Shown piece after piece: positions 33,466 to 36,617 of a stretch of DNA of 58,691 nucleotides; position 1 is the first letter of the stretch, and each line of letters starts with the position of its first letter. The stretch is from contig QHYM01000325.1 in NCBI GenBank assembly GCA_003223295.1, positions 1 to 58,691 of the forward strand, in the 5' to 3' direction. Under the pieces are notes generated by a model. It was given only the letters and a program-made list of their open reading frames with translations. It was not told where the DNA came from and did not search any database. The position numbers were made by a program, and so were the translations under genes. The stretch is from Acidobacteriota bacterium. Lineage in GTDB: Bacteria > Acidobacteriota > Terriglobia > Acidiferrales > UBA7541.

Positions 33466-34761
33466 ATGCCAAAAGAAACACACGTTGAAGGAAACAATCA
33501 GATGAGTATCAGCCTTGCCGAGTTAAAGGAAAAGAACATCACCGACCTCGCCAAGATCGCCAAGGAATTGAACATTCCCGGCGCGAGCGGGATGCGCAAG
33601 CAGGAGTTGATTTTTCAGATTCTGCGCGCGCAGACCGAAAAGAACGGTTTGATCTTTTCCGAAGGCGTCTTGGAATGCCTCCCTGACGGATTCGGATTCC
33701 TCCGCGCACCGGAATACAACTACCTCCCCGGCCCGGACGACATCTACGTTTCTCCGTCGCAAATCCGCAAGTTCGACCTCCGCACCGGCGACACCGTGTC
33801 CGGTCAAGTGCGCCCACCCAAGGATGGCGAACGCTACTTCGCGCTGATCAAAGTGGAAGCGGTAAATTTTGAAGACCCGGAAGTGGCGAGGAACAAGATT
33901 TTCTTCGATAACCTGACGCCGCTTTACCCGCAGGGCCGTTTGAAGATGGAAACGACCAAGGAAAACATGACCGGGCGCGTGCTGGACCTACTTTGCCCCG
34001 TAGGCAAGGGCCAGCGTGGATTGATCAACGCGCCGCCGCGCACCGGAAAAACCATGATGCTGCAGGCTATCGCCAATGCCGTCGCCACCAATCATCCGGA
34101 AGTCGCGCTCATCGTTCTGCTGATTGACGAGCGCCCGGAAGAAGTCACCGACATGCAGCGCACGGTGAAAGGTGAAGTCATCAGTTCGACGTTTGACGAG
34201 CCGCCGCAGCGCCACATCCAGGTTGCGGAAATGGTTTTGGAAAAAGCCAAGCGCCTGGTGGAACACAAGCGCGACGTGGTGGTGCTGCTGGATTCCATCA
34301 CACGCCTCGCGCGCGCCTATAACGCGGTGACCCCACCCTCCGGCAAAGTGCTTTCCGGCGGTATTGACGCCAATGCGTTGCAGCGGCCGCGGCGATTCTT
34401 CGCGGCGGCTCGCAACGTCGAAGAAGGCGGCTCGCTCACTATCGTCGCTACCGCCCTCATCGATACCGGCAGCCGCATGGACGACGTGATTTTTGAAGAG
34501 TTCAAGGGCACCGGTAACATGGAAATCTACCTCGACCGGCGCCTAGCCGATAAGCGCGTCTTCCCCGCGATCGACATTCAGCGTTCGGGTACCCGCAAGG
34601 ACGAATTGCTGCTTCCGCCGGAAGAACTCAGCCGCGTGTGGGTGCTGCGGAAGGTGTTGAGCCCGCTCTCGACGGTTGAAGCGATGGAGCTTTTGCTCAG
34701 CCGGTTGACCAAAACCAAGTCGAACATGGAATTCCTCGGCTCGATGTCCGCGCCGGCCTGA
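33466..34761 (+). CDS. rho: Transcription termination factor Rho
   Basis: This is a 431-residue hexameric RNA helicase. The N-terminal part has [20 protein letters not shown] and the primary RNA-binding cold-shock fold around [20 protein letters not shown]. The ATPase core shows [32 protein letters not shown] and [15 protein letters not shown]. The C-terminal R-loop region has [20 protein letters not shown]. It is complete and ordinary, without the long basic insertion seen in Actinobacteria. An antisense frame of a broken TROVE gene overlaps its last 65 bases. Confidence 0.97.
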
Positions 34762-35267
34762 CACAATTCACAATTTCTGTTTCCAGTGCCGCGATGTAAT
34801 CAACGATGCGCTCCGACCAACCGTCGATGTGCGTCCATCCATTGCCATAGCTGACGCCGTGCTTGTTCGGAGCAACATTCACCACGTACGCGCGTGGCGT
34901 CCACGCGGCAAGGATGCCCTCGTGCGACTGCTCGTCGGTAATGACGATCAGCCGGTCGAGTTCGCGCCACTCCCGCTTCTGGTGGAGCTGCGTCAGCGCG
35001 CTTCAGGTACGTCCCCGAGTGCGCCTGAGAACCCACGATCGCGTCCTGCAGCGCGCCGCCCTTGTCCAGCCGCTCGCGGATGAGCTTCGGGTCGACGCCC
35101 GATGCCAGCATCAGGCGGAGGTTACGCAGGACGGCCAGGCCGCCAAGCTGTCCCTCGCGCCGGAGCCTCTCGAAGTTCTCGTGCTTGTCCTTCCCTGCGG
35201 ACAGAGCAACCTCCCAGGTATCGGGAGATTCGAGCGTGTTCTCAACGAGTTTCTTCCAGGGCGCAGC
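34697..35267 (-). pseudogene. Broken TROVE/vWA (Ro60/Rsr-type) RNA-binding protein gene
   Basis: Reading the - strand, the frame after a TAA at 35268-35270 gives PWKKLVENTLESPDTWEVAL, then SAGKDKHENFERLRREGQLG and GLAVLRNLRLMLASGVDPKL, a typical TROVE-domain segment. It jumps directly to ALQDAIVGSQAHSGTYLKR, the late vWA region, so the end of TROVE and the start of vWA are deleted. Near 34990 one extra base shifts the frame; the next frame continues ALTQLHQKREWRELDRLIVI, TDEQSHEGILAAWTPRAYVV and NVAPNKHGVSYGNGWTHIDG, then runs antisense into rho. The N-terminal half is missing. Intact homologues (about 500 residues) bind misfolded RNA and Y RNA. Confidence 0.85.
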
Positions 35268-35283
35268 TTACGAAGCAAGCGGG

Positions 35284-35336
35284 CTTCGAGACCACAACCT
35301 CTCCGGTTCGCACCGGAGCGCTCTCTTGTGTCGAAG
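35284..35336 (-). other. Long RNA-like hairpin with GNRA loop between Y RNA and the TROVE remnant
   Basis: On the - strand CTTCGA, then a 5-bp helix TTGTG/CACAA after a 3-base bulge, enclose a perfect 7-bp stem CTCCGGT/ACCGGAG closed by GCGA, a GNRA tetraloop in this orientation. The loop is not GNRA on the + strand. No T-run follows, so it is not an intrinsic terminator. It may be a part of a structured RNA or a processing element. Confidence 0.5.
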
Positions 35337-35343
35337 TAACGCG

Positions 35344-35508
35344 CGCCTTCACCACACCGGAGACTCTTGTGCTGGGAACAAGCGGCTGGAGGTTTTCAGT
35401 GCGCTGCGTAAAAACGCCCGCTTGCTGTCTCCGAAGGAACTCCGCCTTCACCACGGCACAACTTCTTGCGGCGGGAATAAACGGCACGAGTATTTTCCAA
35501 TGCTCTGC
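35344..35508. repeat. Imperfect direct repeat of the Y RNA 3' segment
   Basis: The segments 35344-35407 and 35443-35508 align over about 64 bases. Both begin CGCCTTCACCAC on the + strand and end TTTTC-x-TGC-x-CTGC. The second contains the 3' arm that follows the tRNA-like D-arm; the first lacks the tRNA-like module. This looks like a partial duplication of the RNA gene. Confidence 0.55.
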
Positions 35509-35600
35509 CACTGAGCTACGACGGCTTTCGCCACCGGTGGGAATCGAACCCACGACCGTTGGTTTAGCGATGTAACCTTGAATCGAAACGACTTAGGCGG
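35442..35600 (-). ncRNA. Y RNA-like small RNA with a permuted tRNA-like module
   Basis: On the - strand, in order: CCAA (62-59 of 355xx, anticodon-stem 3' strand), 5-base variable region CGGTC, T-arm GTGGG-TTCGATT-CCCAC at 35553-35537, acceptor 3' strand CGGTGGC, tetraloop GAAA at 35529-35526, acceptor 5' strand GCCGTCG, TA (tRNA positions 8-9), D-arm GCTC-AGTGGCA-GAGC at 35516-35502, A, and TTGG pairing with CCAA. All stem lengths match a tRNA, but T-arm precedes D-arm and the acceptor end is closed. This is the topology of the tRNA mimic in bacterial YrlA Y RNAs. Outer ends CCGCCT (35600-35595) and AGGCGG (35447-35442) could pair as the terminal stem; these boundaries are estimates. It lies just upstream of the TROVE remnant, on the same strand. 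Confidence 0.82.
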
Positions 35601-35746
35601 TTGATTTAGAGTCGCGCGAACAAGCAGACCGCGAGACCCGATCGCCTTGGTGCATATCCGTCTTGGCTTTTATCTTCGTGTCTCATATCTGCTCTCACGC
35701 TCAGCGAGGATCTCGGCGAACCGGGACGTACGACTGAGGTATCTGG

Positions 35747-35775
35747 AAGGTAAACGAATCCCGAAAATCTGTCAA
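35747..35775 (-). promoter_or_regulatory. Near-consensus promoter reading toward the Y RNA
   Basis: On the - strand TTGACA (35775-35770), a 17-base spacer and TACCTT (35752-35747) lie in an AT-rich stretch. Transcription would begin near 35740, about 140 bases before the Y RNA-like element. The rest of 35601-35882 shows no gene beyond a possible 26-codon frame starting MRHEDKSQDGYAPRR, which I do not call. Confidence 0.8.
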
Positions 35776-35882
35776 TTCTTTTTTCAAAAAACTGGAAGTT
35801 TTGCCCATTTTTTGCATAACTGATTAATTCCAAAGTACCTACCTGGAATTGGGCGCTGAAATCGCCGCTGGCGTGCCTGAAG

Positions 35883-36617
35883 TCAACTGGCCCGGTGCCT
35901 GCCGGCGGCCGTGCCTGCGAGTTCATCCTGCCTTTCGCGTGCCAGCATGACGATGAGCCGAGCAGTCTCTTCAATACCCATCGCCGTGTTGTCGACAAGG
36001 ACCGCATCGGCAGCGCGCACGAGCGGGGAGACCTTTCTTTCGCGGTCGCGGCGGTCGCGCTCACGTACCTCGTCAAGAACTTCGGCGAGAGTGAACTTCT
36101 CGTCCTTTTCCTGATGTTCCTTCCAGCGGCGCTCCGCGCGCACTTCCGGCGATGCGTCCAGAAAGATCTTCAGCTCTGCGTTGGGAAAAACGACCGTGCC
36201 GATATCGCGCCCTTCCATCACCACGCTGCCACCGGCTCCGGCACGCTGCTGCTCGGCAACGAGTACACGTCGCACGCCCGCGACGGTTGCCAGCCGCGAA
36301 GCTGCCTGCGCTACCTCGGGAGCGCGAATTCCATGCGTCACTTCCCTCCCATCGAGGAACACGCGGTTTTTTGCGCCAGCTACTTCGAGCTCCGGTGTGG
36401 GCGGTTTCAGCTCGATGTGAGTTTCTTTTGCCAGCGCTTCAAGGCGGGCTTCGTCGCTGAGAGCCACTTTTCGCTCGAGAGCTTTCAGCGCCAGTGCGCG
36501 GTACATCGCGCCGCTGTCGAGATAGGAATATCCCAGGAGCGCCGCAATGCGCCGCGCCACGCTGCTCTTGCCGGAGCCTGCCGGACCGTCGATAGAGATT
36601 GTCAGTTGTCTGGGCAT
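35883..36617 (-). CDS. cmk: Cytidylate kinase
   Basis: This is a 244-residue kinase phosphorylating CMP and dCMP. The P-loop is ISIDGPAGSGKSSVARRIA, followed by YLDSGAMYRALALKA and VVMEGRDIGTVVFPNAELKI, all typical of Cmk. It is the last gene of the - strand housekeeping run, 21 bases after fabI, and its C-terminus has about 20 extra low-conservation residues. Confidence 0.96.
   Translation of the reverse strand: MPRQLTISIDGPAGSGKSSVARRIAALLGYSYLDSGAMYRALALKALERKVALSDEARLEALAKETHIELKPPTPELEVAGAKNRVFLDGREVTHGIRAPEVAQAASRLATVAGVRRVLVAEQQRAGAGGSVVMEGRDIGTVVFPNAELKIFLDASPEVRAERRWKEHQEKDEKFTLAEVLDEVRERDRRDRERKVSPLVRAADAVLVDNTAMGIEETARLIVMLARERQDELAGTAAGRHRAS

Follow-up and report, generated by a model that had tools for sequence, protein, structure and literature searches.

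How do the parts of a tRNA come to stand in the wrong order beside the remains of a Ro60 gene in a soil acidobacterium, and what kind of RNA do they belong to? The window, i.e., the whole stretch of 58,691 nucleotides analysed here, carries on the minus strand at 35502-35553 a tRNA mimic in which the T-arm comes first, followed by the acceptor and the D-arm. The initial annotation had described these arms and taken them for an intact gene of a YrlA-like Y RNA next to a TROVE remnant. Reading of the sequence bears out each arm that it named (the 7-bp acceptor stem closed by GAAA, the TA dinucleotide, the 4-bp D-stem with its 7-base loop and the 5-bp T-stem with its TTCGATT loop), the strand and the permuted order; the claim of intactness is lost, as described further below. 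The parts of this unit, Y RNA B, are as follows:

35553-35537, minus strand: T-arm, GTGGG TTCGATT CCCAC, read in the sequence
35536-35519, minus strand: acceptor hairpin, CGGTGGC / GCCGTCG, with 7/7 pairs when G-U is counted
35529-35526, minus strand: loop GAAA, capping the 7-bp acceptor stem
35518-35517, minus strand: TA dinucleotide, read in the sequence
35516-35502, minus strand: D-arm, GCTC AGTGGCA GAGC, read in the sequence
35502-35553, minus strand: the permuted tRNA mimic as a whole (sequence, strict descriptor, RF02553 at 35.8 bits, R1 at 65.9 bits)
35464-35577, minus strand: remnant of Y RNA B, comprising the inner 5' side, the tRNA mimic and the 3' stem strand (alignment A1, R1, junction alignments)

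The flanking CCAA upstream and TTGG (35500-35497) downstream are able to pair as an anticodon stem, and once they do so five bases, CGGTC, are left ahead of the T-arm, in agreement with the short variable region described before. Anatomy, covariation, synteny and lesions, all read from the sequence, lead us to the view that the element is very probably the head, a tRNA mimic, of a Y RNA of the YrlA class whose Ro60-Y RNA locus has decayed.

Standard searches recognize little of it. ARAGORN calls no tRNA anywhere in the window, as had been anticipated for a tRNA finder, and Rfam at gathering scores gives zero matches in the window. At a relaxed threshold, the proposed check with the YrlA model RF02553 returns 35496-35561 on the minus strand with 35.8 bits (E 8e-6), below the gathering score of 69, and none of the 151 genomes examined reaches that score (best 44.7 bits). 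Over the 6.03-Mb genome, Y RNA B alone matches YrlA at E<=1 (E 8.8e-6); since 13 of 14 control genomes also give matches at E<=1 (9/14 at E<=0.01), the weight rests on this low E-value and not on the presence of a match. A loose structural descriptor was dropped because of its many chance matches (48 anticodon-open and 33 D-open in 1.216 Mb of shuffles) and replaced by a strict one for the order T-arm, acceptor, D-arm, scored against dinucleotide shuffles of TROVE loci. This permuted-order search finds a single site on both strands of the whole window, 35502-35553 on the minus strand, compared with 1 in 2.73 Mb of shuffles. R1, a covariance model made from seven relatives alone with the window left out, matches 35483-35577 (minus strand) with 65.9 bits (E 2.9e-11 for the genome). 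A sigma-70 scan of 34700-35900 found 0 sites versus 0.4 expected.

Among 151 genomes (the own genome and its relatives), TROVE was detected in 9 and a YrlA match at E<=0.01 in 16. The eight best RF02553 genomes of the 151, all at E <1e-4, belong to the nine with TROVE; in the remaining one, G026, TROVE lies on a 3-kb contig. In taxonomic terms, the TROVE gene is present in 9/89 family members (the own remnant counted) and 8/36 genus members. Weak YrlA matches occur in eight genomes that lack TROVE (G044, G078, G081, G089, G094, G112, G126, G129; best E 3.4e-4 to 0.0094), near the level of the control matches (9/14 at E<=0.01). Over the genus, R1 at E<=0.1 recognizes 8/36 genomes, namely G006 and all but one of the eight that have a Ro60 match; the former was rejected as an orphan Y RNA without Ro60, its match ending at the contig's last base.

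In the window, genes read as cmk and rho flank the locus, both pointing towards the TROVE remnant; the names cmk, rho, fabI, mutL, lon and clpX are those that we assume from the translations. The order mutL-fabI-cmk, Ro60, rho is present in G016, G011 and G004, and with one end cut off in G032, G029 and G017. As to the nearest relative, fabI and the mutL fragment favour G029, and cmk favours G011. Six congeners and G064, of the same family, possess Y arrays next to an open Ro60 gene. In the congeners, patterns, reading and R1 place the tandem Y RNAs between cmk and Ro60, at the same cmk-rho site as in the window, and the same-locus comparison detects the permuted order at this place in all six, and also in G064. 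The units of the arrays are of several types:

Type A: T-arm preceded by a short hairpin
Types B and D: anticodon-loop-opened tRNA mimics
Type C: without a tRNA-like head
Type E: variable

They have in common a 5' strand like GGTGAAGG, followed by a GTTACTTCG-like stretch, and a 3' strand with TTCC. R1 at E<0.01 counts 2-4 units in each of the seven family loci (L036-L042) and as many as 5 in the class relative L081, and it misses some units visible by eye, e.g., type C in L038-L040. Directly before the Y array and Ro60 of G064 lie RtcB and RtcA (L036 7012-9334, minus strand). Other loci have an open reading frame between the Y RNAs and Ro60: that of L037 (5045-5878) has no Pfam or NCBIfam match at E<=1, and the 111-aa one of L082 (4949-5284), which reads as a short cysteine-containing protein, has no Pfam match at E<=0.01.

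Covariance across homologues was assessed with RNAalifold on B of the seven relatives plus the window: 15 of 37 pairs show two-sided changes, against a shuffle mean of 4.6 (0/500 as high) and at most 5 with slid partners. These changes fall in the T-stem, the anticodon-like stem and the acceptor, and there are none in the D-stem of the same alignment. The closing stem of Y RNA B was found in the seven relatives. Synteny, covariation and the relatives-only model R1 thus back the assignment of a YrlA-like Y RNA beside a TROVE remnant.

What the window retains of this arrangement is broken at several points, the main lesions being:

34772-35267, minus strand: Ro60 (TROVE) pseudogene, matching residues 178-247 (35267-35058) and 365-441 (35002-34772)
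35577-35578, minus strand: deletion junction J1, with ~220-350 bp of congener sequence missing

The TROVE remnant lies downstream of B on the same strand and is the genome's only TROVE match (21.4 bits, 35094-35237); the TROVE piece alone reaches 24.4 bits versus a cut-off of 23. Its N-terminus is gone, ~290 bp are deleted internally and a 2-nt frameshift is found near 34995 (two bases short versus L040), while the remaining pieces are 75-87% identical to a relative's query protein. J1 was defined by DNA alignments with five congeners (L037-L040, L042), to which 35841-35578 is collinear up to the junction; the window then jumps inside B at 35577. In congener coordinates, the missing stretch runs from 4043 to 4397 in L037 and from 5994 to 6216 in L038, and its loss takes a type A Y RNA and the 5' docking strand of B. 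R1 accordingly covers model positions 20-112 of 133 on B, i.e., the head is present and the outer stem absent. The second junction, at ~35267, fuses the remnant of a further unit, E2, to Ro60 from residue 178 on; compared with the congeners, C, D, an ORF without family match and the Ro60 N-terminus are missing there. At the third (J3, ~35055), ~290 bp of Ro60 are missing, and L040 has GCGCTGC at both ends of this stretch. The gene is therefore not intact, as the J1 deletion took the 5' strand of the Ro60-binding stem and Ro60 itself is a multiply broken pseudogene.

In the intact loci, the array would be transcribed and each Y RNA would dock on Ro60 through its closing stem; its head, folded as a tRNA imitation, would either be presented to a partner (PNPase or tRNA-modifying enzymes) or act as a gate of the ring. 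In the window genome, three deletions and a frameshift have broken Ro60, taken the docking strand from B and truncated a neighbour. With its 5' strand missing and no Ro60 left, B cannot dock as its relatives would. That the head retains its pairs would be explained most simply by recent loss, and the decay does appear recent from pN/pS and from the 75-87% identity of the Ro60 pieces. For the 66 in-frame codons left, pN/pS is 0.10-0.21 in window pairs and 0.04-0.17 in intact pairs; since the window values are not set apart, relaxed constraint is not demonstrated.

Three more elements were recognized around B:

35369-35459, minus strand: second Y-like unit, E1, with both stem strands and a short head without tRNA mimic
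35268-35360, minus strand: third Y-like unit, E2, truncated; D-loop-opened-like to one acceptor strand, then Ro60 sequence
35605-35704, minus strand: conserved leader hairpin of ~100 nt with a putatively Y-like stem (alignment and MFE stems)

E1 matches R1 over its full length (1-133) with 26.8 bits (E 0.0017 in 321 kb, E 0.031 for the genome), and E2 with 18.5 bits (E 0.15) at 35242-35360. The leader hairpin shows 87% mean column identity across the window and five congeners, with similar MFE stems, and zero Rfam matches at E<=5; by our reading, its stem has UGAA opposite UGUU, like Y stems, and it may itself be a Y RNA.

The head, E1 or the leader might act without Ro60, e.g., as a tRNA decoy or as a substrate of tRNA-modifying enzymes. 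Such free function would accord with the pairs of the head, which are all kept, one of them through a two-sided change unique to the window (A-U in alignment columns 37-99), a change that would fit continued constraint too, as well as with the two stem strands retained by E1 and the conserved leader. However, the remaining Ro60 pieces are likewise well conserved though no longer useful, and conservation may therefore mean recency. Moreover, the units of the window fold no better than shuffles (B region, z -0.01, second estimate +0.40; E1, z -0.17; E2, z -0.94), in contrast to B of L037 (z -2.33) and L040 (z -2.19). We therefore consider free function unlikely, and the Y RNA remnant is probably without function at present.

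Less probable still is that the deletions are assembler joins and the true locus is whole. The assembly is a draft of 481 contigs, the array consists of similar units, and the 7-nt repeat of L040 lies at the ends of J3, all of which could favour such an artefact; but there are three separate junctions, one inside the single-copy Ro60 coding sequence, plus the 2-nt frameshift, and no further TROVE piece occurs in the genome, whose stated completeness is 95.2%. A chance juxtaposition of the T half and the D half of two decayed ordinary tRNA genes, the outcome that the initial annotation itself had set against its reading, is very improbable: the arm sequences are all tRNA-like and no tRNA is called, but the acceptor strands pair 7/7 across GAAA and covary in relatives (4/7 pairs two-sided), and six congeners as well as G064 show this order at the corresponding place. 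Circularly permuted tRNA genes are tRNA precursors, and such a gene processed to tRNA can hardly be credited here: the order of parts is that of permuted genes opened in the anticodon loop, but the acceptor ends are joined here by a tetraloop, and in intact relatives the open ends enter a long covarying Y stem beside Ro60, with no anticodon loop. The preferred reading thus remains that B is a decayed member of an already known kind of Y RNA.

The related loci also hold a mimic of a different, proposed design, with the order GAGC, hairpin, 4-7 bases, T-arm, acceptor hairpin, TA/TG and GCTC, the following 45 bases being free of GAGC. It was found in six loci (L036, L041, L042, L083, L089, L093), which together with L091 makes 7 examples; L083 has GCTG for GCTC, with 3/4 D pairs, and L091, recognized by R2 (62.5 bits) plus sequence reading, has a bulged acceptor. 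Because this mimic is opened in the D loop, an anticodon-arm-like hairpin is retained, its stem 4-6 bp and its loop 4-8 bases long, at the position of the tRNA anticodon arm (in L089, 5 bp and the 7-base loop TTAAAAA). Sealed acceptor, T-arm and a stem to Ro60-type motifs are shared with the anticodon-opened mimics, unlike the D-loop opening and the kept hairpin. In two distant Acidobacteriota genomes (L087 2812-7779, L089 2357-4821), Ro60-like genes lie in or beside tRNA arrays with 20 and 17 tRNAs, respectively, by ARAGORN.

The strict descriptor was applied to 30 TROVE loci plus a 7-kb window piece (272,791 bases, 31 sources). On the Ro60 strand it gives 29 anticodon-open matches in 22/31 sources and 4 D-open ones (one ambiguous), and zero matches on the opposite strand over the 272,791 bases; the chance level in 2.73 Mb of shuffles is 1 anticodon-open and 0 D-open. 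The strict D-open match at L039 4714 was not counted, as it overlaps a better anticodon-open RNA. An intermediate descriptor yielded 14 candidates, of which five were counted (L036, L041, L042, L083 5592, L089). As D-open candidates, L083 5087, L085 4763 and L091 5124 overlap anticodon-open RNAs, and L038 11758, L039 306, L087 3584, L098 5365 and L098 7453 were judged by eye to be coding, tRNA-array or AT-rich; the candidate L092 7856 has T-arm and acceptor and is not among the counted examples.

An alignment of 4 D-loop-opened sequences has two-sided changes in 12/21 pairs (shuffle mean 5.7, 0/500; slid partners <=6), but the GAGC/GCTC helix, which is diagnostic of D-loop opening, is invariant in those 4 sequences, so that covariation does not decide on the opening itself. 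In MFE folds this helix forms in L036, L042 and L091 and in part in L083, and not in L089 or L093; the fold of L091 retains just 2 bp of the acceptor. Fold z-scores are -1.52 (L036), -0.87 (L042), -1.28 (L091), -1.62 (L083), -2.22 (L089) and -1.29 (L093). The D-loop-opened covariance model R2, in whose source alignment L036 is partly out of register, also matches anticodon-open Y RNAs and ordinary tRNAs, most of its blocks being common to tRNAs, and at E<=0.001 gives matches in 353/396 phylum genomes. Three matches only exceed 60 bits (G447, G534, G323; next 48.3 bits); all are in Ro60 loci, and they alone are read as real, G447 and G534 having been part of R2. In 120 stretches of viral contigs (L102 onward), at least 86 of the 121 matches listed are anticodon-open; of the others listed, 1 fits both designs, 2 neither, 31 lack an acceptor and 1 a T-stem. 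With a pattern that required GAAA and TAGCTCAG, no clear D-loop-opened mimic was seen among the viral matches listed.

E2 of the window shows pieces of this second design: GAGC, a CTCCGG/CCGGAG hairpin, AGGTT, a T-stem with 4/5 pairs, and one acceptor strand plus loop, after which it stops short of the full order. It matches R2 with 16.3 bits (E 0.29) at 35267-35328, and as B itself scores 36.6 bits with R2 via the shared arms, R2 alone cannot separate the designs. From its place and alignment A2, we tentatively assign E2 to a broken unit of the D-loop-opened type, of which it would be the window's member.

On balance, we lean towards the view that Acidobacteriota Ro60 loci carry two mimic topologies, anticodon-loop-opened and D-loop-opened, the latter serving as a decoy by way of its free anticodon arm; of these two claims the topology is the more likely one, and the decoy role is a guess. 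In the D-loop-opened mimic, the acceptor ends would be sealed by a loop, with a short variable-like region and the anticodon-arm-like hairpin kept. Ro60 would thus hold a sealed imitation of tRNA that cannot be charged and whose free anticodon arm would lend itself to baiting or blocking anticodon nucleases or enzymes acting on that arm. No description of a D-loop-opened Y RNA was found in the literature excerpts searched, those from PMC7790460, PMC8394870 and PMC9569102 included, which is a weak negative; judging from the sequences, these mimics may be a variant perhaps undescribed and unexpected to specialists.

As far as the portions of two papers considered here go, in described bacterial systems the basal stem of the Y RNA tethers the ring protein Rsr, and the tRNA-like domain is a substrate of the modifying enzymes DusA and TruB and is said to bind PNPase (PMC8394870, which also cites the Salmonella YrlA structure 6CU1); in D. 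radiodurans, a Y RNA tethers Rsr to PNPase (PMC7790460). An rsr-yrlBA-rtcBA operon is described in the same paper. Similar to YrlA (RF02553), window B has T-arm, acceptor hairpin and D-arm in that order, and its relatives have the closing stem and an adjacent Ro60 gene; RtcB and RtcA beside the array of G064 resemble the operon as outlined in those portions of PMC7790460. Unlike YrlA, window B is without the 5' stem strand and its Ro60 is broken, and the relatives carry arrays with unlike heads that score below the Rfam gathering threshold. By analogy, the intact acidobacterial loci would do the same kind of work as the described Rsr systems.

The window represents a natural loss of Ro60, in which the head remains while Ro60 and the docking strand are gone, and its congeners keep the whole array, which makes it possible to test what becomes of Y RNAs once Ro60 is lost. 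The intact arrays, in turn, present several Y RNAs with unlike heads in one locus, including the D-loop-opened mimic. If true, the latter would point to partners recognizing the anticodon arm, and would bear on the suggestion, made in the portion of PMC7790460 considered, of an anticodon nuclease being possibly inhibited by the tRNA-like domain.
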